Assembly: GCA_022606425.2 (NCBI GenBank)
Contig: JAHDVF020001235.1
Location: forward strand, 1 to 64,000
Direction: 5' to 3'
DNA from: Lepidostoma basale
Lineage: Eukaryota; Arthropoda; Insecta; Trichoptera; Lepidostomatidae
Length of the DNA stretch: 64,000 bases
Shown here: positions 1,926-61,935 of the stretch, in pieces
How positions within the stretch are numbered: the first letter of the stretch is position 1
How the letters are laid out: each line of letters begins with the position of its first letter
Made by a program: the position numbers and the translations under genes
Notes under the pieces: generated by a model
What the model was told of the DNA's origin: nothing
What the model saw: only the letters and a program-made list of their open reading frames with translations
The model's database searches: none

Positions 1926-1990
1926 ACATTATAAACTGTTAAATTTAAAAACTTTGTTTTATGTATCACAATTGTATTTTTATTTTACGC

Positions 1991-2026
1991 AACAGCTGTT
2001 TTGTCAACCTATGTTGACATCATCAG
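1991..2026 (-). ncRNA. Hammerhead-like motif A1 (minus), core mutated
   Basis: Mirror copy in the left arm: CUGAUGA (2026 down to 2020), the same six-pair stem II, then AAAA instead of GAAA, CAGCUG and GUU. The G12-to-A change should abolish activity, so this looks like a decayed twin. Confidence 0.5.
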
Positions 2027-2042
2027 TTGTTATTTGTAACAC

Positions 2043-2078
2043 CTGATGATGTCAACATAGGTTGACGAAACAGCTGTC
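2043..2078 (+). ncRNA. Hammerhead ribozyme-like motif A1 (plus)
   Basis: CUGAUGA (2043-2049), one extra U, stem II GUCAAC/GUUGAC (2051-2056 with 2061-2066) with AUAG loop, GAAA (2067-2070), palindrome CAGCUG as a loopless stem III, then UC with predicted cleavage after 2078. Stem I is weak (C-G, mismatch, C-G, A-U). The extra base between CUGANGA and stem II departs from the textbook core but recurs in the other families of this window. A loopless palindromic stem III would need a dimer to fold. Confidence 0.65.
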
Positions 2079-2152
2079 GCGTAAAATAAAAATACAACTG
2101 TGATACATAAAACAAAGTTATTTTTTTTATTTAACAGTTTATAACAGTTTAT

Positions 2153-2266
2153 AATCGACGTGCGTGCATGGTGCGATGTATGAATGTGGAGGAAGCCCGA
2201 GAGGTGTGCCAGGACAGGCCAGTGTGGCGATCCATCCTCTCTGCCTACCCTGTTAGTTAGTTAGTT
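2153..2266 (+). mobile_element. RTE-1 LINE, 3'-terminal fragment
   Basis: The frame encodes the RTE-1 C-terminus (MNVEEAREVCQDRPVW then LSAYP) and ends directly in TTAGTTAGTTAGTTA. The usual hairpin before the tail is missing, so the last 20 or so bases of the 3' UTR are deleted. It lies right after palindrome A1. Confidence 0.75.
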
Positions 2267-2711
2267 ACATTGTTTTACTATTTAAAAAAATACATTGTAT
2301 TACTATTTAAAAAAATTCATTGTTTTATTTCATTAACATTTTTAATAATTACCAACTTGAATATTGGTTAATAAATAAAAATTTGTTTCCTTTTTTTTTG
2401 TATTTCAGACAATATTATTTGTAGATAATATAAAAATAATAAACACACATATTCCTGGACAACTCGGTTTATCATTCGAGGAACATTCTGTGTATGTTCT
2501 GAATCCTTCCACATAATACAAGTTTTTATCTCAAATTCGCGTTTATTTTGGCAATTGATATGAATTCTAAAAGGACGTCATTTTGTTTTTCATTTCGAAT
2601 TTTATCTTTATACACGTTTTGTATTTCGTCTTCTTCATTCTGTAAGTCTTATGGTATTTTTGGACGTGATATAAATTTTGATCCTATGGAGAAGACGTCC
2701 AACAATCTATC

Positions 2712-2975
2712 CATCGCTTTTGGTGGTCGTTCTGTTGGTTGACGCCCTTCTGGGATCTCGTGCCTCAGAATCTTGTGAATCCTCGCTGATTCCATCCTCT
2801 TCTCGTGGTCTTTCCAGAATCGTCTTCTCTCTTAACTCCATCTATCATTAATATTGCAAGTTCTACAAATCTCCAGTAAGATTTCCTGACTCTAAGAGCT
2901 CTAGCTACAATAGTGTGCAATGTTTAAATTTCTGCTCTTCTGAAATGTTTCGTACTGACTGAATATATTCTTTTG
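2712..2975 (-). mobile_element. ARADT-family LINE fragment
   Basis: Reads on the minus strand and aligns by eye with the fragments at 5490-5835 (-) and 55205-55550 (+), for example the shared segments for W.DH..RM.. and GRP. Frames are broken. It corresponds to the region after the reverse transcriptase domain, as is usual for 5'-truncated LINEs. Confidence 0.55.
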
Positions 2976-3106
2976 AATTTGTGATATATTAATAATATAT
3001 ATTTTTATAACATCGTTTAATTTATTTTGAGCATTAATGAAACTTAAAAATGTTAGAATAATTTATTCTACATTCGCCATCACTTTGTTTTGTGGATTCA
3101 CATTCA

Positions 3107-3306
3107 AATAACTTTTTGAAAACATTGTATTAACTCAACACTTTTTGCGCTTTTCACAAACATGTTTCGGGACACAAACTTTCCTTCTTCAATGTATTAA
3201 TGGTTTCAAAATTCTTACACTGAAAAAGGGACGTTTGTGTCCCAAAACATGTTTGTGAAAAGCGCAAAAAAGTGTTATGATAATACAATGTTTCCAAAAA
3301 GTTATT
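3107..3306. repeat. Family C palindromic element with two hammerhead-like cores
   Basis: Inverted arms start at AATAACTTTTTG (3107) and end at CAAAAAGTTATT (3306). Inside, the minus core at 3159-3192 reads UUGAAGA-A-GGA...UCCC-GAAA-CAUG-UU. The plus core at 3220-3253 reads CUGAAAA-A-GGGAC...GUCCC-AAAA-CAUG-UU with a five-pair stem II. Both have core substitutions, so they are probably inactive. Confidence 0.65.
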
Positions 3307-3371
3307 CATAACATAACATCTGTCAGATCATGTAAACAATTTTAAACTATTTTTTAAAATGTATCTCTTTA

Positions 3372-3402
3372 CTGAAGAAGGACTTTTTGTCCGAAACATG
3401 TC
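3372..3402 (+). ncRNA. Hammerhead ribozyme-like motif C3
   Basis: CUGAAGA (3372-3378), one extra A, stem II GGAC/GUCC with a UUUUU loop, GAAA (3393-3396), palindrome CAUG, then UC. All catalytic-core positions match the CUGANGA...GAAA consensus except for the extra base before stem II. Stem I pairing is poor. The downstream sequence to about 3530 (TATATACAAAGTATAT, then GAGAAATAAA) is shared with the 12.9 kb and 20.0 kb copies. Confidence 0.6.
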
Positions 3403-4129
3403 TATGTAATTTTATTTTTTTAATAAACGTGTTGTATATACAAAGTATATAAAAAATAAAAAGAGAAATAAACCATCATTACAACACAAAGTTTGGCGTT
3501 TGTAGAAAAAAAGTTATTCAAATTTTAGAATATTTTTTCTGTTATAAATTTTCAGATAATATAAATATATATTGTATATTAATAAATTGGAAATGGTAAA
3601 GTTTTATTCAATATAATACATTTGAATATAGATAAATACAATATATATTTTTAAATATTTAAAAGCATTCTTGCAACACTATCACAAAATACTTATAACT
3701 TCTAAGATATTTAACTCCTGAATTGATTTTTTTACGTGTTGGTATTAGGTTTAGAGTAGTCAAAATTGTAATGCTGGATTTTTAAATATATTGAATTATG
3801 CAAGGAATTAAAAAGCATTTAATTATAATTGTTTGTTGATAATAGCATCTAAAAGCGTCATTAAAAGATGAAACATAGTATTCATATATTTTATTACCTA
3901 GATAAGACGTTATTCTCACTTTGATATTTATTGACAAAACTGTGTTCACTCCTGTTTATCTTCAATTAATGGAATATGTAGGTTAATGGCTTCATTTGAA
4001 ATAAAAGTATTGAACATTTGTGAAGTAAGTGAAATTACATTCCAACAATTGTGCAATTGTCAGGTGCCTTCAGGCGACTTGAGCTCTTTAGTGTAATAAT
4101 ATCTGGGGGTTTATTTATCAACTTCGAAC

Positions 4130-4345: not shown

Positions 4346-4445
4346 TAGGAACTAAAATATAGGGCAGTTTATACATGGATATAAATATAGATATTTAACT
4401 TCTATGTTGTTTCTTGAAAAAATCTGTAAAATTTCATTTTAAATA

Positions 4446-4690: not shown

Positions 4691-4734
4691 ATATTTCATT
4701 TAATTTAATATATTTTATTATTTTTATACTTTAG

Positions 4735-8034: not shown

Positions 8035-8270
8035 TCTTCTTCTTCTTCAAGTGCCCTGTCAGGTCCCCCTAACGTTGGCGATCACCTCGGCGAACCTGTC
8101 CCTGTCCTGCGCCGCTCGGAACAGCTACTCCACACTTCGGATGCCGGTCCACTCCCTCACGTTTCGCAGCCAGGGCATTTGTCTCCTTCCGGCCCCTCGG
8201 CGTCCCTCAATTTTCCCCTCCAATATCAGTTGGAGAAGGTTGTACTTTTCCCCACGCAGTATATGACTCA
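8035..8270 (-). mobile_element. RTE-3 LINE, 3' fragment
   Basis: Reverse complement of the 3' end of the element at 8330-8860: shared W.GM.....L.RAAQDR..FA..IANV and the TGACA tail leading into (GAA)n. It sits 60 bp from the other copy in opposite orientation. Frames are interrupted. Confidence 0.75.
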
Positions 8271-8329
8271 GATGTGAGATCTTTCATTTCAATTAACCCA
8301 TTTAAATTGTTGGCAGTTCAATCAATATT

Positions 8330-8860
8330 TTCATCTATTACAATCGCGATGAGACCCTTCTTCTGTGACGATAATTTAAATCTTAAACTTCGACAAAGAA
8401 TGATAAAAGCTTACATATGGTCAGCTCTATTATACGGAAGTGAAACATGGACTCTAAAAGTGAACGTAATGAATCGGTTAGAAGCATTCGAAATGTGGAT
8501 ACACAGAAGAATGCTTCGTATACCTTGGACCGAAAAGGTCAGTAACGTCGAAGTACTTAGGAGAGCCGGAGCCAAGAGAGAGCTGTTGTCGAATGTCAAA
8601 GTGAAAAAGGTCTCATATTTGGGTCACGTGCTGCGTGGAGAAAAGTACCGCCTCCTCCGACTTATATTGGAGGGCAAGATAGAGGGAAGACGGGGAGTTG
8701 GCAGAAAACAGATGTCCTGGCTGCGCAACATTAGAGAGTGGACCGGAATGAGGACGGTGGATGACCTGTTTCGGGCAGCGCAGGACAGGGAGGTTTTCGC
8801 CGGAGTGATCGCCAACGTCGGGGGGACCTGACACGGCACAGGAAGAAGAAGATTACAATC
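8330..8860 (+). mobile_element. RTE-3 LINE, C-terminal region open
   Basis: The longest uninterrupted LINE frame in the window (185 codons from 8274; the element itself seems to begin near 8330). Key pieces: SALLYGSETWTL, RRMLRIPWTEKVSN, VLRRAGAKREL, YLGHVLRGEKYRLL and RMRTVDDLFRAAQDRE-like end. This is the region C-terminal to the RT palm, including the LGH/RGEKY segment. No YxDD palm remains, so it cannot work alone. It ends in TGACACGGCACAGGAAGAAG with a (GAA)n tail. The open frame suggests a fairly young insertion. Confidence 0.8.
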
Positions 8861-10403: not shown

Positions 10404-10756
10404 CTGCTGCAAATCTGAAACAATCGATGTAATTATTCGTATTATGGTTGACCGATTCGTTTCAATGAGCTATGATTATCGTGAAAATAAAAATAAGTAT
10501 GCTATTTTTTGTACTATTAAATAGATATGTGTATTGGAAGTGGTATTAATATTAATATATAATATTTCCTGGATCCAGTATTCAAGATCCTTTCTAACAT
10601 TATTAATACACAAAAAACTTCCTTGTCTTAGAAGCATAGAATTGTGCGACATTTTTTGTGGTGTGACATTATTAAATAAAATAATAATTATACTCTTGTA
10701 AAAATTCTATTTAAACCACTTTATTCTTACGTAATAATAATAAAACCAACTTAATA

Positions 10757-10787
10757 CGACGATGCTCCAGCGGGAGCGAAACCGGTT
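10757..10787 (+). ncRNA. Hammerhead ribozyme-like motif D
   Basis: C-GACGA, U, stem II GCUCC/GGAGC (10764-10768 with 10773-10777) around AGCG, GAAA (10778-10781), palindrome CCGG, then UU. One core base (the U of CUGANGA) is missing. Partly complementary arms around TTTAAACCACTTTA (about 10708) and AAGTGGTTTA (about 10804) surround it, as in the other hammerhead palindromes. Confidence 0.5.
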
Positions 10788-10839
10788 GGTGTTAATAACG
10801 AATTAAGTGGTTTATGTACAAATTTTATAAGTGTATTAT

Positions 10840-11425
10840 GATTATATTTAAAACTATTAACCAATAATTACACACCATTCCTACGACAATCCAAAAAACA
10901 TACTTGTATGTTAGTTTTTATAAGCCCAGATGAATACAGTTTATTACATATCAGGTTTTAAACATAATTTTCTCTCTTTGTATATTCATATTTTAATTAA
11001 TATAGGTACTCTAGAACTTTTTTTTTATAACCATGGTACTTAATAATCAGATCCGATTTATGGATAATTAATATTGATGAAGGCGTCCATTTCTCAAAGT
11101 GTTTGTATATAACATGGTATACACGTATGCTGCCTTGCTAGGGCACTATGTAATATCAATTTGATGATTTCACACTATCTAATGCAGTAGCAAGACAAAA
11201 GTTGTAACTCTCAGAAAATGTATTAAAACTTCTTAAAAACAACGGTTTTCATCATTATTTAATATGAAAGTTTTCATTATTCTTAATAAAACTTAAACTT
11301 CATTTGCTGAATATTTGCATATCTGTGTGGAACCTAAAATGAAAAGTTTTCTCACATTATTCGTTTAAATCCGTTATAATTTAGCACGCTTATTAATCTT
11401 AAATTGGTATATTAATTAAATAAAA
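10840..11425. other. Unassigned AT-rich stretch
   Basis: Nothing recognised beyond low-complexity AT tracts. Confidence 0.35.
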
Positions 11426-11560
11426 CGATGTTTTTTAACTACTTCCACTTTTGTCTAAGTGGAAGTAGTTAAAAAACATCGTTTTATTTAATTATTATTT
11501 AAAATGAACTTCCATCAAGAGATTTCAGTAAAACCATTTGATTACCTTAAATCTGTATGT
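11426..11560. repeat. Family E element, tight palindrome
   Basis: TAAATAAAACGATG, TTTTTTAACTACTTCCAC then TTTTGTCTAA, mirrored at once by GTGGAAGTAGTTAAAAAAC and ATCGTTTTATTTAA. Arms are about 38 bp with an 8-10 base loop. It continues with AATGAACTTCCATC as in the 12937 copy. The hammerhead-like block of other E copies is absent, so it may be deleted from the loop. Confidence 0.65.
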
Positions 11561-12189
11561 TATAATTCTTATGAATTTTAATCTTAAAGTGGTAGTATTT
11601 ATAAATTTAATTAACAATTTAACATCACGCTATGAAATTTAACAATAGAATTAAGAAATCAGTTTTTTTTTCATGTATTAATTAATATGGGTGTTAAAAC
11701 CCTTTGATCACGCATAATTCTAGTATCAAAAATTGGTCGAGAAATCCGATTAGTTCATTAAGATTGGATGGCTTAATAACGACGTAACGCGGGGAACAAG
11801 CTAATGGTTAAAATTTCCTTTGCGTCACTCAATTACATTCACACTTTCGCGGCCGCAATCAATCAAGCCGGGAACTGTGTCGGCCATAAATCATTTTGTG
11901 TCCCTAAATCGCCACGTTTTCTTTGGCCGATCCTCTTTGCACGTGCCAAATTCTGAGAATTCAATCGTTCATAAAACTGTGAGTCACGCTAATAAAATAT
12001 AAATTACCGCATTTGAATAAGTAATTGTTAGTATGAGTGTGCCCTCTCGGGTATATTGATTTTATTTTATGCAAAAATGTGGATCTTTCAAGTGAACAAG
12101 GACAACACATGATCTTTGTGTAATGACATTAGAATGTACGAGTATAATACGAATATAAAACAAGTAATATATTATAATACAATAATAAA

Positions 12190-12345
12190 TTAAAATTAAA
12201 TAAAACGATGTTTTTTATAACTACTTCCACATTTGTCTTTATTTCGACAGCGGACGGTTTCACCAGGCTCGTTGGCATCGACCGACTGGTCTGATGCCAG
12301 CGAACCTGGCAAAACCGGTTCCTGTCGAAATAAAGACAATAATAA
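12190..12345. repeat. Family E palindrome with two hammerhead-like cores
   Basis: Arms TGTCTTTATTTCGACAG (12234-12250) and CTGTCGAAATAAAGACA (12322-12338). Between them a plus core at 12291-12321 reads CUGAU, stem GCCAG/CUGGC, AAAA, CCGG, UU, and a minus core at about 12251-12282 reads GUCGAUG, CCA/UGG, GAAA, CCG, UC. The CUGANGA part is shortened in both, so activity is doubtful. A short AAT repeat follows at 12339-12357. Confidence 0.5.
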
Positions 12346-12529: not shown

Positions 12530-12936
12530 AATGTGGAAGTTTCTTCTATGTTCGCCATACTTTGTGTTGTAGATGTTTTATTTGTCTTTTTCTATTTTAT
12601 ATACTTTGTATATACAACGCTAACTTTAAAAATAAAAAAATATCAGACATGTTTCGGACAACCCTGTCCTTTCTCAGTGATATTATATAGATATTTAAAA
12701 TAATGATAAATTGTTTACAAATATGATCAGTTTTGACCGATGTTATAAGGATTTATTTTGGAACATTTATGCTTTTGATATAACAAATATTATGAATCAA
12801 TTTAAATTTTTAAATAATAATTTTAAGTTCTTATTGGGGTTCAGGTAATTACTTACAACAAAGGATATTTAATTTAAACTTTTTAAAGTTAGTATTGTAT
12901 ATACAAAGTATATAAAAAAGAAAAAGACAAATAAAT
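12530..12936 (-). repeat. Family C element with flanking inverted arms
   Basis: Left arm about 12586-12632 (GTCTTTTTCT, TTTATATACTTTGTATATA, then TAACTTTAAA) is mirrored at 12888-12935 (TTTAAAGTTAG, TATATACAAAGTATATAAAA, then AAAAGAC). The hammerhead core lies just inside the left arm on the minus strand. The order arm, ribozyme, body, inverted arm resembles the inverted pLTR arrangement known for Penelope-like elements; no RT coding is visible in the 200-bp body. Confidence 0.6.
12646..12677 (-). ncRNA. Hammerhead-like motif C5 with good stem I
   Basis: CUGAGAA (12677 to 12671), A, stem II GGAC/GUCC, GAAA, CAUG, UC. The flanks AATATCA (12639-12645 on plus) and TGATATT (12678-12684) pair perfectly, giving a seven-pair stem I exactly where the hammerhead model needs it. 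G8 is replaced by A, which should reduce or kill cleavage. Confidence 0.55.
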
Positions 12937-13040
12937 GTGGAAGTAGTTATGAAAAACATCGTTTTATTTAATAACTATTTAAAATGAACTTCCATCGAGA
13001 TATTTCAGTTAAATCATTTGATTATCATAATATAATTGTG
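12937..13040 (+). repeat. Family E unit
   Basis: AAATGTGGAAGTAGTTATGA, AAAACATCGTTTTATTTAA and AATGAACTTCCATCGAGA as in the 11.4 kb copy. It directly follows the right arm of the family C element, so C and E units are adjacent parts of one element or have inserted into each other. Confidence 0.5.
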
Positions 13041-19208: not shown

Positions 19209-19867
19209 TTTGAAATCTATATGATGTTACATTTTGTGGGAAGATACAGAAAATGCATCAAAATAAACATTAAATTTCGATGCATACAAGTATGAGTATA
19301 CAAAATTGGATATATTTCACAAATAATACTCAGTTATAATGTATTGTGTTCACTTTATACGATTGCAAATGCAGTCACGCCATCTTGTTTTACAAAGTAA
19401 TCAACGACATTTTAAATGTTGTATTCAAATAAAAACTTATATTCTATATCTAATTATGAATCGATATTTCGTAAACAGAATCGCCTTCTCAGCATGTCTA
19501 ATGGTGATTTAATTAGTAATGCTACCATTTATTTAACTCTAATGTTCAACCACCATCTATTAAAACTCGATTCGAAAATATGTAAAAAACTTATGATGAT
19601 AGTTTATTTGTATTATATTGTTTTTATTCTAGGCAATTTTACCTCATGAATTATTTGTGTGTCTATGTGATTTTTTCATATAATATATAGATATTGTTTT
19701 TCAATTCGTTGTTCATATGTATTTCCTACATCACAACTTCTTGTTTGAGTACATAGTAAATAATACTTTATATGGCGTGACATCCTTTAATCATAAATTT
19801 CTTCAAGTTATCAATATTACATTTTCCTTATATCTTTAACACTATAATAAAGAGTTAAAAAGATATG

Positions 19868-20031
19868 TCTCTTTTCCTTTTTTATATTCTTTGTATAAAC
19901 AACACTTACATTAAAAAAAATGTTATAATATGTATCACTGAAGAAGGACTGGTTGTCCGAAACATGTCTATGTTATTTTAATTTTTTTAATGTAAGTGTT
20001 GTAGATACAAAGTATAAAAAAGAATAAGAGA
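19868..20031. repeat. Family C palindromic element, copy C4
   Basis: Arms of about 50 bp: 19868-19920 (TCTCTTTTCC, TTATATTCTTTGTATAAACA, ACACTTACATTAAAA) and 19982-20031 (mirror). The hammerhead core lies between them, nearer the right arm. Downstream to 20070 it shares ATACAAAGTATGGCGAATAT with the 12.5 kb element (reverse). Confidence 0.7.
19938..19968 (+). ncRNA. Hammerhead ribozyme-like motif C4
   Basis: CUGAAGA (19938-19944), A, stem II GGAC/GUCC around UGGUU, GAAA (19959-19962), CAUG, UC. Every core base fits except the extra A shared by all families here. Stem I is not convincing from adjacent bases. Confidence 0.6.
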
Positions 20032-20079
20032 AATAAAGCATCTACAATACAAAGTATGGCGAATATGGAAGAAAGTTAA

Positions 20080-21549: not shown

Positions 21550-21730
21550 AAATTAGAAACTAACTAACTAACTAACCATCACGGCGTTTCCCCGAAAAGG
21601 TAGGCAGAAATAATGGACTGCCACACTTTAACCAATGCGGCACTCTATTCTTTTCTTTTCGCCCCCACGAGAGACGCGGTGTGATGGGTTGCGAACCTCA
21701 TCTCCACCAATAGGTATCTCCCGCAAAATT
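21550..21730 (-). mobile_element. SINE-3, near full length
   Basis: Tail CTAACTAACTAAC at 21561-21574 (minus (TTAG)n), CCTTTTCGGGGAAACGCCG hairpin, GAATAGAGTGCCGCATTGG, CGCGTCTCTCGTGGGGGC and B-box-like GGTTCGCAACC (minus, near 21687-21697). Parallel to 6915-7095. Confidence 0.75.
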
Positions 21731-21774
21731 AATATTTTGTATTTAACTACAAAATGGTAATTATATATTAAATC

Positions 21775-21806
21775 AACAAGTTTCGCTCTTACCCAAGCAT
21801 CATCAG
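21775..21806 (-). ncRNA. Hammerhead-like motif F1
   Basis: CUGAUGA (21806 to 21800), U, stem II GCUU/GAGC (one G-U), GAAA, CUUG, UU. The core is intact apart from the extra base; stem III is weak. Confidence 0.5.
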
Positions 21807-21829
21807 GGCAATATATGAACTCATATTGC

Positions 21830-21862
21830 CTAGATGAAGTTTGGGTACAAACGAAACTAGTT
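21830..21862 (+). ncRNA. Hammerhead-like motif F2
   Basis: CUAGAUGA (one inserted A in CUGAUGA), A, stem II GUUUG/CAAAC around GGUA, GAAA (21853-21856), palindrome CUAG, UU. Stem II differs from F1 at several positions on both sides and still pairs. Confidence 0.5.
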
Positions 21863-21889
21863 GGCTTCAATTATAATATCCATTCTGTG

Positions 21890-22880
21890 CTCTAAAACAC
21901 TTTTTCTTTGTTCATATTTTTTGTTTGTTAGTGTGTGATGATAAATTGACCTATTTCAGTTATTACAATTTTAGTTATCAGTTCAACAAAGTTTACCTAA
22001 CAATTTGTCTCCCCTTTGAGAAGAGTTCAGCTTTAGTCGTAAATGTACAAATTATCACAATGTGATACACAAAGTCAACAATGTCAATGGCCATTAAATG
22101 CGCTCTGAGGCCATGAACGAAAAATTAGGTTATTTGTTGCAAAACACCGGTCATGGGACTGTCTTTATTAGCTAATCAGTGCAACAAAGCATTGCAAAAC
22201 AACAGAAGCATTCGAGAGGTCTTAAAAATGTCAAGAGATAAAAAGTCGTTGCGACATTCTGAAGTCAAAAATTTTTCATCCGGTGTGCAAGCAACTTTAC
22301 AGGTAGCCTTCTCGAAGTTGTCGGACACTTAAAATGTTCCATTATTTTATTAGCGAGTGTAAATTAAAAACGGACATTTAAGCTTTTGGGTACTCTATCT
22401 CGGAATGAAGTGATAACACAGAATTCCAACAAAATAAAAATCTAATTATTACTTCAAGCCACCCTTTTAAGTTATCTGAACGATCAACAGTAAATGTTCG
22501 AATAATATATGATTCAATAAAAAAACGCATTTGTTCTATCAAATTCGTTTTGGCATTAAAGAGACAAGGATGATTTTAAGTATTTTATTTAAGTATCGCG
22601 AACTCTTCCGTTACTTTGTGCGTCCCAAATTTTATTAATAATCTTACTTTAATTAAAATTTCTTTTGATTACTATTCGATAAAATATATACAACCAAATT
22701 TTTTTTAAAGATATGAAAAAACTGTTATTAATTATTTGTTTATATATGTATTTTTTTTAATGTGTACTTCGTACATTATATGCCATCAATTATATCCACA
22801 CAAGACGAAGACTGTGTTGTGTGTGTTCTTATATCTAAGTTGTATTTTTTAGAATATATTAATAAGGAATTTAATCATTG
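21890..22880. other. Unassigned stretch
   Basis: No element recognised; 22080-22330 is slightly GC-richer. AT-rich otherwise. Confidence 0.3.
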
Positions 22881-29999: not shown

Positions 30000-30215
30000 G
30001 TCGTTTGAACCCAATTACTGTATACAATTTATTATTTAGCTATTATATTGATTCTCGTGACATGTGATAAGTAGCCAATCTATCGCCATTTTATTGTCAC
30101 GTGAATTCTACACCAGACCAAAGACAGTGTGACAATCACACTGCCATCGCCGGGAATCAAACCCGGGACCTTCGGTATGGAAGTCAGAGCTCTTACCACT
30201 CTGCCACGAAGGTCG
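30000..30215 (-). mobile_element. SINE-1, full-length-like copy
   Basis: On minus: A-box region TGGCAGAGTGG (near 30200), B box GGTTTGATTCC (near 30155), GTGTGATTGTCACACTGTC, GTAGAATTCACGTGACAAT, then a 3' end with AATTGGGTTCAAACGACCTG and a TCGTATACATAC end. The 3' end differs from the 13437 copy, so SINE-1 has at least two subfamilies. Confidence 0.8.
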
Positions 30216-30244: not shown

Positions 30245-30360
30245 GAACTGCTTTCACTTGTGTCCAAATAAAGAAAAAAGTGGGAGCATGAATGTTTTTA
30301 GAAACACCGTTTTATTGAATTATTTTAATTAAAAGATATTTCATTAAAATCATTTGATTT
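30245..30360 (+). repeat. Family E fragment
   Basis: CAAATAAAGAAAAAAGTGGG, AACACCGTTTTATTGAATTA and ATCATTTGATT match the E unit with divergence. No hammerhead-like core. Confidence 0.4.
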
Positions 30361-31261: not shown

Positions 31262-31514
31262 CTTAAATAGTCCATTATTTGGCCGAAACACTATGATACC
31301 TTAACATTTTAAACTGTTTAATTAAAAAACTTTGTTTTATGTTTCACAATTGTATTTTGTTTTACGCGACAGCTGTGTCAACCTATGTTGACATCTTCAG
31401 GTGTTACAATTATTATAACACCTAATGATGTCAACATAGGTTGACGAAACAGCTGTCGCGTAAAATAAAATACAATTGTGATACATAAAACAAAGTTATT
31501 TAATTTAACAGTTT
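31262..31514. repeat. Family A palindromic element, copy A2
   Basis: Arms 31312-31400 and 31421-31514 mirror each other (TTTGTTTTATGTTTCACAAT versus ATTGTGATACATAAAACAAA). The outer flank 31262-31312 with GGCCGAAACACTATGATACC is also found at 706 and 56786. Hammerhead-like cores occur on both strands; the minus one (31363-31400) keeps CUGAAGA and stem II but has lost three bases at GAAA. Confidence 0.75.
31422..31457 (+). ncRNA. Hammerhead ribozyme-like motif A2
   Basis: CUAAUGA (G5 to A), U, stem II GUCAAC/GUUGAC with AUAG loop, GAAA (31446-31449), CAGCUG, UC. Near-identical to A1 apart from the G5 change, which should inactivate it. Confidence 0.55.
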
Positions 31515-43844: not shown

Positions 43845-44065
43845 ATAGGCCGTATGAACCCAATTACTGTATTCAATTGTTTTTTTAGCAATTATATTGA
43901 TTCTCATGACTTGTGATAGATAGCTAATCTATCATCATTTTATTGTCTGTGAATTCTACACTAGACCCAAGACAGTGTAACAATCACATTGACATCGTCG
44001 GGAATCAAACCAGGGACCTTCAGTATGGCAGTCAGAGCTCTTACCACTCTGCCACAAGGTCTTCA
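43845..44065 (-). mobile_element. SINE-1 copy
   Basis: Minus: TGGCAGAGTGGTAAGAGC, GGTCCCTGGTTTGATTCCCG, GTGTAGAATTCACAGACAAT, AATTGGGTTCATACGGCCTA. Same 3' subfamily as the 30 kb copy. Confidence 0.8.
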
Positions 44066-49419: not shown

Positions 49420-49640
49420 CTTTTTATATCATCACAGCGCGAGCCAAATCTATGTAAAGGGTATAGCTATCAATTTGATTCTCATGACATGTGATAGGTA
49501 GCTAATCTATCGCCATTTTATTGTCACGTGAATTCTACACCAGACCAAAGACAGTGTGACAATCACACTGCCACCGCCAGGAATCATACCCGGGACCTTC
49601 ATTCATAGCACTGCCACTCGGTCACTAAGGTCTTTGTGGT
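49420..49640 (-). mobile_element. SINE-1 copy, 3' end like the 13.4 kb copy
   Basis: The 3' terminal block TTTTTATATCATCACAGCGC, GAGCCAAATCTATGTAAAGG at 49425-49463, then the body, then CCCGGGTATGATTCC (minus B box, mutated) and the head near 49630. Confidence 0.8.
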
Positions 49641-50290: not shown

Positions 50291-50660
50291 TAAAAAATAT
50301 TTTTTTTATGCTTCTCTTCTTATAATGTAATTGCAAACGATCTGGAATTATATATCTGTAATGTTTGTGATTTTTTATCAAAATAAATGACATAAATGAA
50401 ATAAAAGTGAAAAGAATTATTGGAGTACGTGAAAGGTGGAGCTTCGAGCACATCGTAAAAGATTCTGATGAGTTTCATGGATTTTGGTAGTAAGTGTAAT
50501 GAATGTTAAAGAGTAGTTTCCACTTATTGCGCTCAAGCTCGATACAAAAGCATTATGAAATTTTGCTTTATAATCATTTTAAGAAGGAAATGAAAAACAA
50601 CGCTGCTTACATTCCACTTTAATTTGATAAATATCTTTAAAAAATAATAATATTAACCAC

Positions 50661-50691
50661 GACATGTTTTGGAGGTGACCTCCATCCTCAG
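50661..50691 (-). ncRNA. Hammerhead-like motif B1
   Basis: CUGAGGA, U, stem II GGAGG/CCUCC, AAAA (G12 lost), CAUG, UC, then GUGG. Confidence 0.5.
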
Positions 50692-50880
50692 ATGTAAAAA
50701 TATAACTGTTCAATCATATATAATATAAAACTGTTTCTGTGTTAATCAGTCATATATTTACATCTTATTTACACCTTATATTTACACATGTCGTGGTTAA
50801 TATTATTATCTTATAAAGATATTTAATACATTAAAGTGGAACGTAAACAAGGTTGTTTCTTCAATTGCAATTTTACGTTC

Positions 50881-50911
50881 CACCTTTTTCGAGGGTGACC
50901 TCCATCCTCAG
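50881..50911 (-). ncRNA. Hammerhead-like motif B3
   Basis: CUGAGGA, U, stem II GGAGG with CCCUC (slipped pairing), GAAA, AAGGUG instead of CAUGUC. The cleavage-site half is mutated. Confidence 0.4.
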
Positions 50912-50978
50912 GTGTAATTATATAAGTGATTAACACAGAAACAATTACATATTTGATTGAACAGACATATATTTACAC

Positions 50979-51009
50979 CTGAGGATGGAGGTCACCTCCG
51001 AAACATGTC
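50979..51009 (+). ncRNA. Hammerhead ribozyme-like motif B4, best core
   Basis: CUGAGGA (50979-50985), U, stem II GGAGG/CCUCC (50987-50991 with 50995-50999) around UCA, GAAA (51000-51003), palindrome CAUG (51004-51007), UC; predicted cleavage after 51009. Flanks CAC (50976-50978) and GUG (51010-51012) pair as stem I. All invariant positions are kept apart from the extra U. Confidence 0.65.
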
Positions 51010-51081
51010 GTGGTTAATATTATTATTTTATAAAGATATTTAATAAATTAAATTTTCTTCAATTGCAAGTTTACGTTCCAC

Positions 51082-51112
51082 AACATGTTTCAAGGGTGAC
51101 CTCCATCCTCAG
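51082..51112 (-). ncRNA. Hammerhead-like motif B5
   Basis: CUGAGGA, U, GGAGG with CCCUU (weak), GAAA, CAUG, UU, GUGG. Stem I CAC/GUG is kept. Confidence 0.5.
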
Positions 51113-51179
51113 GTGTAAATATGTAACTGATTAACACAGAAACAGTTATATATTTGATTGAAAAGTTATATTTTTACAT

Positions 51180-51206
51180 CTGAGGATGGAGGTTGTCAAA
51201 CATGTC
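51180..51206 (+). ncRNA. Hammerhead-like motif B6, stem II eroded
   Basis: CUGAGGA, U, GGAGGUUGUC, AAA, CAUG, UC, GUGG. The CCUCC strand is lost, so it is inactive. Confidence 0.4.
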
Positions 51207-51269
51207 GTGGTTAATATTATTATTTTTTAAAGATATTAAATGAATTAAAGTGGAACATAAATAGCGTTA

Positions 51270-52005
51270 TTTTCCAATTCCAATGTTATTAAAATTAATT
51301 AACACGTTTCTGAAGAATTGCATGAAGATTCCTGTGTTTTAACAATCTCTTTGTTTAAGTTCTCCGTACGTGTTTTAATGTAAATAATTTAATACGTCAA
51401 TCCTAGAGGATTTCACAGGTCAGTCTTGTCTCGCGGGTGTTTGCACTGAAGAGGACGACAGCGTGACAGATCGTCTCGCTAACAAGCGGATCCTAGTTCA
51501 CGGCCCTCCGCAAACAGAAACAAGAGATTACGGGGACAGGCGACCGTTACCCGGAGATAAAGACCCCATATTCAGGGACCACGATTCCCTGCATCCCTCG
51601 AGTAAACTCAACTAAAATTCTTTAGCTGAATGAAAAATTAAATTGAATATTTTATTCAAGTTAGATTGCGTCGTAGTCTCGGTTGAGTTTACATTGCCGC
51701 TCCGGTGAAACGCTGTAAGGCGGGTGCAAAATGAATGGCGGACTTCCGCACGCGAGATATTTGAGAGCCTCCACCATACTTCATCTGGCTTAATGAAAAA
51801 CAAACATTTTGTGACGCGAGGAGCTTGTATTCATTAAAGCAGTGTTTGCAGAGCAACGTCTAGATTTGAATATGCTTTTCTTGTATTGACGCTCGCGGGA
51901 CGGTGGCTGCCCCGCTGGACCCGTTGTTTATCCATTGATTCCACGCACGTGACAAGGGGTTTTTAATTAAAATATGAAATTTACATACGTATAAAATAAA
52001 CAAGT
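51270..52005. other. Unassigned stretch with GC-richer island
   Basis: 51410-51960 is GC-richer and free of element signatures. Short frames only. Candidate host regulatory DNA. Confidence 0.3.
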
Positions 52006-53067: not shown

Positions 53068-53506
53068 GTGCGGTTGGCTACATTTGAAGCTTGTATATAT
53101 ATCGCACCGTGGGTGTAAAACCGAAACAAGTGCAAATATACAATTTGGAGATATGGGAGTTTAAAGACTTCATATTGCTTGGAAAAACTGTTTTTTTTTA
53201 ATAAACCAATGATTTTCAGTTTAAAGTTATATACCTATAAACCGAAAATCATTGGTTTATTAAAAAAAAAAACAGTTTTTCCAAGCAATATGAAGTCTTT
53301 AAACTCCCATTTCTCCAAACTGTACAATTGCACTTGTTTCGGTTTTACACGGTGCGACATGTATATTATTTAACCTTATTTCTTTATTTCCGTACATCTA
53401 AATTATGGGTAATATTATTATGAACTGGGGACACTCCATCTGAGCTGCAAATGTAGTCAACCGCAGTTCCAGACCATTTTTTACTACAAATGAAGCGAGC
53501 CGCACA
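53068..53506. mobile_element. Family J MITE-like element with internal long hairpin
   Basis: Ends TGTGCGGTTGGCTACATTTG (left) and CAAATGAAGCGAGCCGCACA (right) are inverted repeats, as in the 32881-33095 copy. The interior is filled by the 120-bp hairpin at 53103-53356. Non-coding. Confidence 0.65.
53103..53356. repeat. Near-perfect 120-bp hairpin
   Basis: The arm 53103-53226 (CGCACCGTGGGTGTAAAACC ... GATTTTCAGTTTAAAG) is the reverse complement of 53235-53356 with only a few mismatches, one 3-base indel and a loop of about 8 bases. Transcribed from either side it would fold into a long double-stranded RNA hairpin. Confidence 0.85.
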
Positions 53507-53509: not shown

Positions 53510-55045
53510 GGGGTTAAGTTCAAAATACTATAAGATTGTGGTCAAAGCAAGTTATCTCAAACACTTACAAATATAATAAGCATGTAACCATGAATTGTGC
53601 TGTATTGTGTAATTTAAGTTAATAATATTGTTTATCCGAAAGATAACTTCGCAATGAAGTTATGACGCGCCCTTGATAAACATTCCACGCCACATTTGGC
53701 GAGAGATTCTTCCGTAAGTACTCGAGAGAATTCTTCCCAAAGAAAATAAAGCAGTCGTTTGGCGGCAATCTAACTTAAATAAACCACTTCCTTTGTATCA
53801 TTCATCATAGAATACAAAAGCGGGGGGTTATTGTGTAGGTATTGCCTGTCTATGAACAGAATCTATTGAAAAAAGTTTCTCCGTATCCTTCGCCCGAACT
53901 TTATTTATTCGCACAACGTACCGACAATCAAAAGGGAAGCCTCGCCTCAGTTCTCTCGCTGTCAAAACAAAACGAACGGTTTATGAAGTTAGCCTTTCGC
54001 TGCGCAAACACTCGCTACCCGGGGCCGGCCGCCATGAGCTGACAAGATAACAAAAATGAACTATTGTGAGTATTACAATATGAGCTTTTACATTATAAAA
54101 ATCCATTAGGCGTCCCCTTAGAAACGAAATCCTCCCGATGCGTTAACCCGTAATTCTCCGATAACATCTTCGGAAGCCGCTGGCTGCGGGCGGCGCTGAG
54201 CTATAAAAGGAAGACGTACTTTAAAACGTTTTGCATAAAAGATTGCAAATGTTTGCGATTTCAAATTCTTTATTACGACCTTTCAGAATGAAATAACACT
54301 CTCAGAAATATCTCTTTGAAGTAAAGGAGAAAAATTATTTTGGTCCTACTCCCGGACCATTTGCGTTTGATAAGTAGCTACTCACACATACGAGTATCTT
54401 TCGTATTTGAAATTTGGAAGACTTTCCGCAGAATATTAAGTAGGTGCCTGGGGTTTATACTTGATAATAAACGATTTAGGTACCGACGTTTCAATTTTGA
54501 AGGTATCCGAGCAAAAACGTATTTTAAAAGAACATTTTCACCCACTACAGGGTACGACGCCGGCAGGGTGGCCTCAAAACTAATTAACTGTGGCCTAACT
54601 ACTTGAAATTTCATTCTTAATTGGAGTCAATATGGATTACCGCAGCGATGTGCGTGTAAGGGCACGTGGGAGGATGTTTACCGAAATCCCTTGTGACATA
54701 ATAAGATACCATTATACATTTTGACCCTTACCAAATAACCTTTCATATTTTACACCTGATGTTTTGCTTTGAAGAGAAGGGTAAAACCTTCAAAAGTTCT
54801 TTTGAGTACTTTTTTGTGTTTATTTTTTAAACTGTGATGATTTTAATATGAGGAAAAAAGAAAAATTAATATTGTTGGTTCTTATTAAATAGAGGAAATA
54901 ATAATTTTTAAATCTTTTCATGTTCAGGTTAAAATATATTTCCAGTGAAAATAATACCTGTTTAAGATAGAAACAAAAGGCTTCAATCGTTATCTTTATT
55001 AAAAAAATAATAATAATTTTCATATGAAGCACTCACTTTGTGGTT
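53510..55045. other. Unassigned, GC-richer 53640-54220
   Basis: No transposon signature from 53640 to 54600. CTATAAAAGGAAG at 54201-54213, preceded by GC-rich GCTGCGGGCGGCGCTGAG, looks like a TATA box, but no coding exon follows that I can defend. 54340-54614 has overlapping frames of 78-88 codons on both strands with no match. Best candidate here for host promoter or conserved non-coding DNA. Confidence 0.3.
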
Positions 55046-55049
55046 AAAC

Positions 55050-55145
55050 ATTTTAAGCTGTATGGTTATTATAATTGATCTAGTTTCGCTTGGACCCAAG
55101 CTTCATCACGGCAATATAATAGTTATTATATTGCCCTGATGTTTT
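55050..55145 (-). repeat. Family F element, partial palindrome
   Basis: GGCAATATAATAGTTATTATATTGCC forms the centre (quoted parts GGCAATATAA / TTATATTGCC). The minus core lies at 55077-55109. The opposite half stops after CCTGATG at 55142. Confidence 0.55.
55077..55109 (-). ncRNA. Hammerhead-like motif F3
   Basis: GUGAUGA (first core base C to G), A, stem II GCUUGG/CCAAGC (six pairs) around GU, GAAA, CUAG. Compared with F2 (GUUUG/CAAAC), stem II changes are compensated on both strands. Confidence 0.5.
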
Positions 55146-55204
55146 TTTTATTTTATATCTATGTGTTTAATAATTTTGTCCTGTAATTTGCATATACTCG
55201 TATA

Positions 55205-55975: not shown

Positions 55976-56044
55976 AGAAGAATAAATTTATCATAAATAG
56001 GCGTATGTGATAAATATTATAAACTGTTAATGAATAAATATTGT

Positions 56045-56095
56045 TTTTTGGATCACAATTGTATTTTATTTTACGCGACAGCTACCTTCAACTAC
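56045..56095 (-). repeat. Family A element, truncated arm
   Basis: GATCACAATTGTATTTTATT, TTACGCGACAGCT is the start of the left arm of A2; it breaks in CAGCTG, the stem III palindrome of the hammerhead core. Confidence 0.6.
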
Positions 56096-56264
56096 CTTCA
56101 ACTTTTGTCACCTTTCCTTTTAATGTAATCTATGTACTTCCTGTTATTGTTTATCGTTTTTAATTTATTACGTTTTATTCGTTTTTGACCCTATACTATG
56201 TGTAATTGTTCCTTCTAATTACTGTTTTATTATTATTATTATTATTTTATTATCAGATTTTCCA

Positions 56265-56518
56265 CTAAAGAAGGTATATGTAAACGGCGTGAACGGAGCT
56301 AGAAATAGAGGAAGGCCGAGGAAAACGTGGCACGATCAAATCAATCAAATATTGTATGTCGGTCACGTGAGGAGTCGGAAAAATCGACGTGCGTGCATGA
56401 CAAGATGTATGAATGTAGAGGAATCGAGAGATGTATGTCAGGACAGAACAGTGTGGCGTTCCATTCTTTCTGCCTACCCCTCCGGGGAGACGGCGTGATG
56501 GTAAGTTAGTTAGTTAGT
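56265..56518 (+). mobile_element. RTE-1 LINE, 3' end with open frame
   Basis: NGARNRGRPRKTWHDQINQI, LYVGHVRSRKNRRACMTRCM, NVEESRDVCQDRTVWRSILS, AYPSGETA, then CCCCTCCGGGGAGACGGCG and (TTAG)3. The terminal hairpin loop is CTCC here rather than CTTC, with the CCCC/GGGG stem kept. Confidence 0.85.
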
Positions 56519-56689
56519 TTATATTTTCTCCTTTGAATAGTAACTAACCGTTCTTTTAATTAAAATATTTAGGTACCTAACTCAATTTCAACAAGAACTT
56601 CAAAATTATATCAAAGAAATTATTCAAATTGACATAGGGACAAATACACAAAGATTCGAAAAATCACGAAAATTTGACATTTGATATAT

Positions 56690-56826
56690 TATTGTCACAC
56701 CTGATGATGTCAACATTGGTTGATGAAACAGCTGTTGCATAAAATAAAATACAATTGTGATACAAAAAACAAAGTATATTCATAAAATGTTAAGGTATCA
56801 TAGTGTTTCGGCCAAAACAATGGACT
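56690..56826 (+). repeat. Family A element, single arm plus flank
   Basis: The plus half of the A element (hammerhead core, AATAAAATACAATTGTGATA, ACAAAGT) followed by the outer flank ATAAAATGTTAAGGTATCAT, AGTGTTTCGGCCAAAACAAT. The mirror arm is absent. Confidence 0.65.
56701..56736 (+). ncRNA. Hammerhead ribozyme-like motif A3
   Basis: CUGAUGA (56701-56707), U, stem II GUCAAC/GUUGAU (one G-U pair) around AUUG, GAAA (56725-56728), CAGCUG, UU. The core is intact; the stem II change C-to-U keeps pairing as G-U. Confidence 0.6.
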
Positions 56827-56864
56827 ATTTGATAAATATTAGACTGCTTCATTTTACAAGTATC

Positions 56865-58595: not shown

Positions 58596-58599
58596 ATAT

Positions 58600-58675: not shown

Positions 58676-58699
58676 GATAGTGCTACATTTCAAATCAAG

Positions 58700-59080: not shown

Positions 59081-59082
59081 GA

Positions 59083-59640
59083 GATTTATTTATTTATTTA
59101 TTGATCATTTACCAAGTACATGGTTTTAATACCTCCCAACTGGGAGGGAGCCTCCCAACCCGTTCTAGGGAGGCATTCCTAGAACTCTATATAATTTCAA
59201 TATATAATATAATTTGCAAATTTAGGGAGCAGTTAAGGGAAGCATCACATATCCTAAAGTGTATAACTTAAAATTAATTGACTTATATATTATACTCGTA
59301 TAACACTATTTAAACACTATATTGTCTTATATAACACTATTTAAACTATTTACTTATTTTTAAAAATTATACTACATTCAAGCCGTCCTTTTTTTAATGT
59401 CTCCGTAGTTACATGTTTTTTGTAATTGTGCATTGTCATTTTTTGTGGGTCGTTTATCGTTTTGTTAATTATGTTATAGAGTTTGGGTCCAAGATAGTAG
59501 AAATGTCTTTGCGCATAAGAAGTTTTAGTTTTTGGTACAAAATGGTTATGTTTGTTGCGTGTGTTGTACGTTTGTTGTGCTTTTAAGTGTCTGTCGGTGT
59601 CCTTGTGGTAGTGCACGACTAAATTTCTTATATATAGTTG
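59083..59640 (-). mobile_element. CR1/Jockey-like LINE, C-terminal end
   Basis: The minus frame 59616-59350 reads KAQQTYNTRNKHNHFVPKTK, TSYAQRHFYYLGPKLYNIIN, KTINDPQKMTMHNYKKHVT. This is the NTR.K......T...Q.SF.Y.G..+YN.L...F...+K..L end typical of these LINEs. The 3' UTR continues to (TTTA)n at 59084-59100, i.e. (TAAA)n tail on minus. A single open frame, 5' truncated. Confidence 0.75.
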
Positions 59641-59897
59641 TATTATGTCCGGTACTTGAAATTAAATGATACTTACTTATGTTAAAACGTTTTTTTTTTA
59701 TTACCGTGGTACCTCTCCATGGATTTACCCTTTCTTCCTTTTAGGCATCTGATGATGAATACTGTCCAAGATGGCGGAGTTTTCAAAGAATTATCTAGAA
59801 GGTTTACACTAATTAATGTTTGTTGATTTCTTAATATATATAATTGGAATAAGAATAACAGTTGTGGAAAACCAAATTACGAGTATATTTATTTAAT

Positions 59898-60195
59898 TAA
59901 GATTGTTTGGACATATGGAAAAAATGAATGAAGAAAGAATGGTAAAAAAAATATGTTAACGATGTAAATGGAACCAGAAATAGAGGAAGACCGAAGAAAA
60001 TGTGGCACGATCAAATAAATCAAATATTGAATGTCGGCCATTTGAGGAGTCAGAGAAATCGACGCGCGTGCATGACAAGATGTATGAATGTTGAGGAATC
60101 GAGAGATATATGTCAGGAAAGAAAAGTATGGCCGTTCATTCTTTCTGCCTACTCCTTCGGGGAGACGGCGTGATGGTTAGTTAGTTAGTTTTTTT
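59898..60195 (+). mobile_element. RTE-1 LINE, 3' end
   Basis: RLFGHMEKMNEERMVKK, then a one-base loss, NVNGTRNRGRPKKMWHDQIN, QILNVGHLRSQRNRRACMTR, CMNVEESRDICQERKVWPFI, LSAYSFGETA, CTCCTTCGGGGAGACGGCG and (TTAG)3 followed by T8. Confidence 0.85.
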
Positions 60196-60199
60196 TATT

Positions 60200-61175
60200 T
60201 AATTAAAAGTTTGGTTTATTTATTTATTACAATACTGCGTTTTTCCGCTTGTAAATTAATTTCCTTTATTTGTTTTGAAGGTTTCACACACAGGGAGAAT
60301 GATATTAACTGTCTTTGTCGTTCTCTTGATAATTCGATTCATGTCGAGAAAAAACGACTCAGAAGTGAAAAAAAAAATTCGATTCATAAAAACTTCGGCC
60401 TTTTTGAATTTCCACAGTGTTAACGCCAAGTTTATTAAAATGAATATTTAATTTTCTTACACAATGCTTATTCTTTTTAATGTTATTAAATCTTAAAATT
60501 TCTTTAAAAAAAATTTAATAAAAAACGAGTAAAATTGAGAAATTATCAAAATGTTGCAGAATCCCTCTAATTTAGTACGAAACACCGCGTATAATTGGAA
60601 TTCTAAAAAAATAAGTTTGAACAGTTAATTACCGACAGCAAATTTTTCTGCAACCTCTATTTTTTCACTTCAATAAATTCCTTCATGGAGCTCCGCGAAT
60701 AAAAATAAATATTTGCCAACCGGGCACCTTCAAGATTCATTTCATCATTTGACTTTCACAGAACTTTGAATGGGTGTCGAAATCGTCGCAGTCAAAGTAT
60801 TGTCATTGCCATTATTTACACACTTACGGCTGTTGTCAACCGCAAATAATGCATTCATTGCGCGTCCGATAGGTACCTCCCAGCGTACCGGCCGGGTGGG
60901 TAGGTACTGTGGAGCAACCACAAAGGCTAACGAGATGCTGGTGGTGGACTCCGAACTCAATTGGAGTTAACGAATATACGGGGCCCTTCACAGCGCTGTA
61001 ATGACTCATTACGCAACCCCAAAAGATAAAAAAAGTTGGAAATATGGATTTTTTAAAAATATATTATATGTTCATCCTATCACCATTCATAATCAAAAGA
61101 CGTATAACATAGTCCGTACATTATAGGGATCTAGTACAATCTCCTATGTGTAAAAAGCTTAAAGTCGACAAAAGT
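60200..61175. other. Unassigned stretch
   Basis: 60400-60440 has a family K fragment. 60760-60990 is GC-richer with 66-71-codon frames on both strands; not recognised. Confidence 0.3.
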
Positions 61176-61179
61176 TAGA

Positions 61180-61256
61180 TAAAAGTAGGATCAATGCTGT
61201 AAAATTGGGATCACTACGAATAATATACGGAATAGCGCTACATGAAAGAATATAAA
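61180..61256 (+). mobile_element. RTE-1 LINE, short internal fragment
   Basis: AAAAGTAGGATCAATGCTGT, GGGATCACTACGAATAATAT, ACGGAATAGCGCTACATGAA aligns with the DESRINAVEMRSLRRMCGYSV region. Both ends missing. Confidence 0.5.
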
Positions 61257-61713
61257 AGGAATAAATACTAGAATCAACTGTATCTCAATAGAGACGAAGA
61301 TGCAAATTGGAAACAGAATATGGTTGATCGAGGTGTTTATAGGACTTATGACCTGTCATTGGTTGGGTTAAGCGTACGCTTTATGTAATACAACATTCCC
61401 CATTCCACCATTTTTCTTATAACCACCATGTCTTACAAATTTTTGGAAGTTGTATATATGTTAATCTGTAAGACCATCCTTTACATGGTAGTTTTTGCAA
61501 TCTACACACTAACGCCATCTATGAAGATTGTATTTGTTACAGGTCATAAGTCCTGTAAACACCTCGATCAACCATATTCTGTTTCCAATTTGCATCTTCG
61601 TCTCTATTGAGATACAATTGATTCTTTGGATTGATAGCCCGCAATGGGTGAAATCCAGTTGTTCGTCTACAAGTATTTGTATACATTCAAAATGTTGTAG
61701 GAATAAATACTAG
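61257..61713. mobile_element. Family I palindromic element with 15-bp direct flanks
   Basis: AGGAATAAATACTAG at 61257-61271 and again at 61699-61713. Inside, arms of about 86 bp (61272-61357 and 61539-61624) are inverted copies of the TATCTCAATAGAGACGAAGA ... GACCTGT block of family I. The plus part is followed by a minus part carrying the other family I end (AACCCATTGCGGGT-like, TTTGTATACATTC). The flanks look like a target-site duplication. Confidence 0.7.
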
Positions 61714-61935
61714 TTTATGTATCAAAATATAGAATCTAATTATAAAATATCTGTCATAATTGACCATATTCATAAAAAATTTGTTTCAACAGTAATTTTG
61801 TATATACAAAAACTAACAAAACACTGATGAGGGTTTGTGTGTCCGAAACATGTTTGTATTTTAATTTTAAAAATAATAAAGAGAGTGTTGTTTACAAAGT
61901 ATTTTAATAAATATTGTTCATTGAATAAATACTAG
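61714..61935 (+). repeat. Family C-type segment closed by a third GAATAAATACTAG
   Basis: Contains motif C6 and TGTATATACAAAAACT, AATAATAAAGAGAGTG typical of family C, and ends at GAATAAATACTAG (61923-61935), a third copy of the flank of the preceding element. Confidence 0.5.
61824..61854 (+). ncRNA. Hammerhead ribozyme-like motif C6
   Basis: CUGAUGA (61824-61830), stem II GGG/UCC (weak, one G-U) around UUUGUGUG, GAAA (61845-61848), CAUG, UU. Stem I ACA (61821-61823) pairs with UGU (61855-61857). Here there is no extra base before stem II, closer to the canonical form. Confidence 0.55.

Follow-up and report, generated by a model that had tools for sequence, protein, structure and literature searches.

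Palindromic repeats with a shared hammerhead-like core in a caddisfly contig and their likeness to the ends of Penelope-like elements

Known Penelope-like elements and the caddisfly window

Hammerhead ribozymes were present in all sequences of Penelope-like elements (PLEs) then available, usually without helix III (PMC6155905). Here we describe families of palindromic repeats that share a hammerhead-like core in a 64,000-nucleotide stretch of the caddisfly Lepidostoma basale (GenBank assembly GCA_022606425.2, contig JAHDVF020001235.1, positions 1 to 64,000; hereafter the window), which is AT-rich (GC 28–37%), and compare them with the closest described systems.

A typical Penelope copy of Adineta vaga consists of an open reading frame (ORF) between two 218-bp pseudo-long terminal repeats (pLTRs) with an adjacent inverted pLTR and a 9-bp target-site duplication (TSD) (PMC3846280). 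Its pLTRs measure 181–218 bp and its TSDs 8–10 bp, a 31-bp tail is optional on one inverted pLTR, head-to-head joins are the commonest, with junction palindromes of 18 and 38 bp, and solo pLTRs occur (PMC3846280); the main text of that paper does not use the word hammerhead. The repeats of the window resemble these copies in their head-to-head inverted units of ∼200 bp, junction palindromes, optional one-sided tail, TSDs, solo units and foreign DNA between units. They differ in that their TSDs are mostly 12–16 bp, their tail is ∼39–45 nt, and no ORF of this kind was seen among the 18 scanned of 126 ORFs of at least 70 amino acids.

In the anole Poseidon PLE, the hammerhead lies at the start of the ORF, with the start codon after G8, at the start of stem II; the PLE protein acts on both strands, cutting and extending them, and two reverse transcriptase (RT) start sites 3′ of the hammerhead bound the tail (PMC11167929). 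The placement of the hammerhead and start codon, the two internal RT starts and the optional tail of 30–40 bp all have their likeness in the window. Unlike our repeats, the anole element is coding and autonomous, and its hammerhead depends on protein for cleavage, which is dispensable for insertion in vitro.

Reduced forms of stem III are also on record. A palindromic stem and loop III has been described in several eukaryotic hammerheads, with a dimer model for Aedes (PMC3088659), and dimer-active PLE hammerheads with a minimal or palindromic stem III are cited in PMC6466107 and PMC7761336. The minimal PLE hammerheads of Cervera & de la Pena 2014 and Lunse et al. 2017, as presented by citing papers (PMC7761336, PMC6466107, PMC8490949), are comparable with the motifs of the window in that stem III is reduced, palindromic and dimer-dependent, and a 2020 review calls the role of minimal hammerheads in PLEs unknown (PMC7761336). 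Animal non-LTR retrozymes, whose repeats occur in insects among others, likewise have small units and type I hammerheads; theirs, unlike those of the window, are tandem repeats with canonical hammerheads, whereas PLE variants are called minimal and amphibian retrozymes have a weak, palindromic stem III (PMC7229834). No account of short palindromic hammerhead pairs in insects turned up in the literature that we searched.

A hammerhead-like core with covarying stems

We scanned the window for CTGANGA followed by a stem II of at least four pairs and GAAA. This strict pattern occurs at nine sites, six on the plus strand (2043, 3372, 19938, 50979, 56701 and 61824) and three on the minus strand (51112, 50911 and 21806), compared with a mean of 0.4 per first-order Markov sequence of the same make-up (eight sites in total across 20 sequences, at most two in each). 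A looser scorer that includes the palindrome returned 10 sites at a score of at least 18, against 0.17 per shuffled window across 30 shuffles. Families A, B, C, D and F, together with a weaker family G, have in common this hammerhead-like core, a minimal type I motif in which CUGANGA and GAAA are set among three helices, with H17 at the predicted cleavage site, and a loopless palindrome of 6–8 nt serves as stem III: ACAGCUGU in A, ACAUGU in B and C, ACCGGU in D and one arm of G, and ACUAGU in F. By our own criteria 6 of the 17 tabulated copies, namely the six plus-strand sites listed above, are free of lesions, and they include the motifs of both one-armed elements, C1 and C4. The hammerhead reading of the palindromic repeats holds: the motifs are real and putatively self-cleaving.

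The pairing of stem II was assessed by swapping the 3′ strands of each helix among seven families or subfamilies, with representatives drawn at random 60 times and 500 permutations for every draw; the seven groups are not independent, as C, C-prime and C4 are related subfamilies. Stem II scored on average 25.7 of 28, compared with 14.5 after permutation, and the fraction of permutations reaching the observed value had a median of 0.002 and was 0.008 in the worst draw. The first three base pairs of stem I behaved similarly (14.8 of 21 versus 8.2; median 0.006, worst 0.036). Stem III scored 19.6 of 21 versus 17.2 (median 0.044, worst 0.32, the worst draws thus not being significant), and it tells little in this test because most families have its outer bases in common. 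When the best-kept copies were picked by hand, the scores were 23/24 for stem II, 15.5/18 for stem I and 12/12 for stem III. Covariation is therefore seen in stems I and II and is weak for stem III, which bears out the proposal of an earlier note on this DNA that stem II covaries and extends it to stem I. The same note had regarded the families as otherwise unrelated, and there is indeed little similarity outside the ribozyme: cross-family BLAST at E ≤ 0.01 found only a 34-nt match between B and C2 (E 0.007) and the relation of C4 with C. MAFFT alignments across families did not hold stem II in register.

Individual motifs depart from the consensus to varying degrees. The earlier note read CUGANGA at 12 named sites in families A, B, C, D and F; a hammerhead-like core is present in all five families, but five of those sites deviate, with CTAATGA at 31422 (G5>A), CTGAGAA at 12677 minus (G8>A), ACGACGA at 10757, CTAGATGA at 21830 (C3U4 lost in register, or an inserted base) and GTGATGA at 55109 minus (C3>G). 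It had also assigned one stem II sequence to each family. These sequences stand for A, C and D and for B at 50979 and 50691 minus, while in B the helix is broken at 51112 minus and 50911 minus; in F, GCUUGG/CCAAGC is found at 55109 minus and not elsewhere, since 21831 has GUUUG/CAAAC, with U-A versus C-G as its second pair, and 21806 minus has a 4-bp stem with one G-U. Lesions in the copies that are not intact affect C3, U4, G5, G8 or G12, disrupt stem II or abolish the palindrome. Beyond the 17 there are degenerate copies in A2 (31368–31400 minus), C-prime (3157–3192 minus) and B (B5, 51180 plus), and in family G (1853, 12250–12276 and 12296), which provides weaker evidence, its core being off consensus (CTGTCGA at 1853).

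One lesion, G12>A, is common to three separate copies (2026 minus, 50691 minus and 3220 plus) whose sister copies have a CpG at C11.1-G12, which suggests decay by CpG deamination.

An extra base between A9 and stem II had been singled out as conserved and less usual. It is present in 16 of the 17 copies, as T in 10 and A in 6 with the register set by hand, and is missing at 61824; in 10 of the 17 it yields ATG. Its position agrees with that of the anole PLE start codon (PMC11167929), and we infer that the anole element likewise has A-U-G across A9, the extra base and G10.1. An extra core nucleotide is also known in a viroid hammerhead (PMC11014351).

Short and long ends, target-site duplications and origin of the repeats

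In families A and C the ribozyme is followed by a family-specific 3′ tail that extends ∼65–105 nt after H17 and, in the tail alignment, has two alternative ends ∼40 nt apart. Scoring of the ends covered the two-armed elements with aligned tails, A1, A2, A3, C2 and C3, and left out B, C-prime, D, F, F2 and G. Four of these five (A2, A3, C2 and C3) have one long and one short end, which corresponds to the optional one-ended tail of 30–40 bp in PLEs. In the mirrored A and F elements the two halves meet just 5′ of the ribozyme, and each join is itself a short palindrome.

TSDs of 8–16 bp flank six insertions (C1, C3, C4, A3, C2 and A2), and F2 has a candidate for a seventh (Table 1). Two of the six insertions are one-armed units of 199 and 206 bp, so that the window contains the ∼200-bp units with TSDs, direct or inverted, that characterize PLE ends. 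Exact TSDs were searched for at 14 hand-set loci with 2000 random pairs each, and TSDs with one mismatch at 12 loci. The one-mismatch routine undervalues some matches (10 bp for C4, where the exact match is 16 bp), as does its null, and the range set for F2 missed the candidate there.

We think it quite probable that the repeats are short, mostly decayed PLE ends (pLTRs), solo or inverted, that were moved by a PLE protein acting in trans; the units themselves are too short to encode a mobilising protein. The link to PLEs, for which the earlier note had cited their established hammerheads, is supported by the ∼200-bp units, the TSDs, the one-ended tail and the head-to-head joins. In the better copies stem III is a bare palindrome, and therefore full closure is possible only between two RNAs or between two tandem copies. 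In a PLE-like cycle, the stem III palindromes of tandem transcripts would pair, allowing cleavage as double hammerheads; the PLE protein would cut an AT-rich site in trans, and reverse transcription would begin at one or the other of two sites within the tail, leaving short or long ends. The mirrored form might then arise if both cut strands are extended, an activity that the anole PLE enzyme has in vitro; alternatively, self-priming might occur at the 5′ palindrome, a route put forward by the authors of the Adineta vaga study.

The loopless stem III and the mirrored arrangement had been put forward as less usual features that may define a distinct lineage. Both have been published (PMC3846280; PMC6466107, PMC7761336, PMC3088659), and we reject mirroring as the definition of a new lineage; the palindromic layout agrees with the known anatomy of PLEs and does not in itself mark such a lineage. 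On the features tested, the setting fits a known kind of element, and its odd features have largely been described before.

Several results weigh against assigning the repeats to PLEs or the motifs to working hammerheads. Lesions are present in 11 of the 17 copies, and the looser scorer is dominated by noise at a score of 13 (53 sites versus 29.6 per shuffle). The earlier note had proposed an Rfam hammerhead search as a check and counted a lack of matches against its own reading; the whole window gave zero matches at the gathering score and zero at E ≤ 10, and on four short stretches the sole match was Hammerhead_3 on A1, at 14.8 bits versus a threshold of 48.5. We do not regard this outcome as decisive, since an Rfam match is a customary check and not a chemical requirement, and the models, we think, may well depend on a closed stem III. 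No Pfam match of any kind exceeded its cut-off among the 18 scanned ORFs, so that no PLE protein (RT, GIY-YIG) was seen there. The remaining two-armed element with aligned tails, A1, has a short end on either side; the TSD search came up empty for A1 and B and gave no significant match in D, F and C-prime. The ranges for that search were set by hand after the ends had been inspected, so that the p-values are optimistic, and TSDs of 12–16 bp exceed the 8–10 bp of A. vaga. Homodimer predictions place the whole palindrome between the two strands in 7 of 16 copies; of these, only three (A1 minus, C-prime plus and D plus) retain the two stem II hairpins as well. With respect to mechanism, the A. 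vaga authors favour self-priming on an antisense template over two-sided priming (PMC3846280). In the anole system hammerhead mutants still inserted in vitro, cleavage required protein, and the cleavage site did not coincide with the start or end of any RNA read (PMC11167929); the cleavage step may therefore not matter for insertion.

A more specific idea, which we hold only tentatively and consider doubtful, is that the stem III palindrome has been kept since it joins two template RNAs in a dimeric PLE complex, with both cut strands primed simultaneously from the two outward tails. If so, the mirrored elements would be genomic footprints of double-hammerhead RNA dimers, and the position of the A and F joins just 5′ of the ribozyme as well as the different start sites at the two ends of four of the five two-armed elements would be accounted for. 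Such a complex needs the palindrome, not cleavage.

Next to the assignment to PLE ends, the repeats could be related to animal non-LTR retrozymes, in which the transcripts of tandem repeats of 150–450 bp undergo self-cleavage and circularisation and serve as templates for PLE machinery. The units of the window are short and AT-rich, insects are among the hosts of such repeats (PMC7229834), and a hammerhead-bearing period of 201 bp is seen in family B (Tandem Repeats Finder, 50856–51249, 2.0 copies). However, unit-length tandem repetition was tested for B only, and the stem III of B is loopless; no tandem arrangement was noticed elsewhere, the remaining families being one-armed or inverted. Retrozyme hammerheads are of the canonical type I, in contrast to the loopless stem III found here, although the palindromic stem III of amphibian retrozymes makes this feature alone indecisive (PMC7229834). 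Since the one-ended tail moreover matches PLE copies, we consider a retrozyme origin unlikely.

It is still less probable that the repeats are foldback or miniature inverted-repeat transposable element-like DNA transposons with the motif in their terminal inverted repeats by chance. Such elements would explain the many long, near-perfect palindromes, some of them with TSDs, yet C1 and C4 are one-armed and have TSDs nonetheless, and the ends differ by ∼40 nt in four of the five two-armed elements, which is unexpected if a transposase recognises both. The TSD length also varies from 8 to 16 bp, and the ribozyme core is common to families with little other similarity; on account of the one-armed copies with TSDs and the unequal ends we reject a DNA transposon.

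A functional role of the mirrored form, with ribozymes on both strands for symmetric rolling-circle replication as in some viroids, seems very improbable. The B units have motifs on both strands, and A, C-prime, F and G are mirrored too, but none of the seven mirrored pairs that were read (A1, A2, three in the B cluster, C-prime and F) keeps the core, GAAA, stem II and the palindrome on both arms, and the G pair at 12186–12339 is degenerate as well; we reject function on both strands on this ground. Finally, chance matches in AT-rich palindromic DNA without ribozyme ancestry, which the noise of loose scoring and the Rfam result might suggest, are scarcely credible given nine strict sites where 0.4 are expected and stems I and II that match far better within than between families.

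As candidate PLE ends, the families of the window, several of which combine one common ribozyme with mirrored joins and with ends of two lengths, form a compact set for studying PLE insertion.

Feature coordinates, pattern matches elsewhere and other repeats

Table 1. Hammerhead-bearing repeats of the window, with TSDs and their p-values
Feature	Position	Strand	Description	TSD
Family G (missed by the earlier note)	1808–1925		Inverted tail, then CTGTCGA-T-GCCA..TGGC-GAAA at 1853	
A1, two-armed palindromic	1940–2129		Arms 93 nt, 91% complementary, 4 nt between	
Family A mirror hammerhead	1991–2026	−	G12>A	
Family A hammerhead, core to H17	2043–2078	+	Lesion-free; stem II GUCAAC/GUUGAC, stem III ACAGCUGU	
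C-prime mirrored pair	3107–3306		3220+, 3157–3192−; lesions in both arms	
C1, one-armed, 199 bp	3309–3507	+	Long end; hammerhead 3372–3402 lesion-free	AAAAAGTTATTCA, 13 bp exact, p 0.0015
Family D	10700–10825		Inverted tail left, tail right; limits by eye; hammerhead-like 10756–10787, C3U4 lost, stem II GCUCC/GGAGC, stem III ACCGGU	
Family G mirrored pair	12186–12339		12250–12276−, 12296+; plus-arm stem III ACCGGT; cores degenerate	
C3, two-armed, 392 bp	12541–12932		Left end long, right short (left +39 nt, counted by eye); hammerhead 12677− (G8>A)	AAATGTGGAAGT, 12 bp exact, p 0.0025
C2, two-armed	19867–20073		Left end short, right long; hammerhead 19938–19968+ lesion-free	AGTTAAWAAGATAT, 14 bp with 1 mismatch, p 0.004; exact only 7 bp, p 0.34
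Family F mirrored pair	21706–21930		21806−, 21831+, lesions in both; junction palindrome GGCAATATATGAACTCATATTGCC; limits by eye	
A2, two-armed, 254 bp	31264–31517		Left end long (tail), right short; 31422+ (G5>A), 31368–31400− (GAA lost)	TTGTTTCT, exact 8 bp, p 0.117; 12 bp with 1 mismatch, p 0.019
Family B cluster	50586–51281	both	Motifs 50691−, 50911−, 50979+, 51112−, 51180+; lesion-free only at 50979–51009+	
F2, second family F copy	55021–55167	−	55109− (C3>G); stem II GCUUGG/CCAAGC	Candidate TAATAATTTT, 10 bp, p 0.022, at 55011 and 55168
A3, two-armed, another repeat inside (56276–56520)	56020–56829		Left end short, right long; hammerhead 56701–56736+ lesion-free	TGATAAATATTA, 12 bp exact, p 0.003
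C4, one-armed, 206 bp	61717–61922	+	Short end; hammerhead 61824–61854 lesion-free, without extra base	GAATAAATACTAGTTT, 16 bp exact, p 0.001

Two of these elements are neighbours of others: A1 adjoins the right end of the first family G repeat, and the insertion site of C1 is the right end of the C-prime pair or close to it. The palindromic repeat of family G is also found at 11409–11540, 12926–13020 and 30261–30356.

Pattern scans for the motif outside the window gave one match in viral contigs; in genome contigs a first pattern gave zero matches and a later one four loci, three of which (L002, L003 and L005) resemble coincidences when judged by eye. The viral match, in an IMG/VR contig that is GC-rich by eye (L001:7575–7607), reads CTGACGA-T-GACCC/GGGTC-GAAA, with the same extra T, a 5-bp stem II and a non-palindromic stem III; it is a possible hammerhead and may be a chance match. 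The remaining locus (L004:618–651) lies on a contig filed as an Oscillospiraceae metagenome-assembled genome, the first part of which looks eukaryotic, and the contig is likely to be host contamination. In its minimal hammerhead-like motif the extra T and ACATGT are present, stem I has 3 bp and stem II is imperfect. The monomer is not predicted to fold as a hammerhead, and the locus shows only weak BLAST matches to the window. Because the scan pattern demanded TG after CTGATGA, this locus says nothing about how frequent the extra base is.

A fragment at 8250–8828 that resembles reverse transcriptase, and which we take to be of the LINE type, has 168 relatives; among the 120 listed, those with organism names are insects, including Temnothorax, Condylostylus, Pararge, Apolygus and Diabrotica, which agrees with an insect host. 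A dispersed repeat without the hammerhead core, consisting of ATGGGGAATGTTGTATTACA and then the palindrome AGCGATCGCT or AGCGTACGCT, is found at 24424 (plus), 41353 (minus) and 61403 (minus), the last of these near an inverted repeat that is 98% complementary (61270–61356/61539–61625). At 53094–53370 there is a palindrome of ∼170 nt with arms 89% identical, in which no hammerhead core was seen and which is possibly another type of transposon. Lastly, a repeat present in three copies (30101–30207, 43949–44055 and 49528–49634) overlaps, in its first copy, a tRNA-like Rfam match of 29.2 bits (30142–30213, minus strand), and is perhaps a tRNA-derived short interspersed element.

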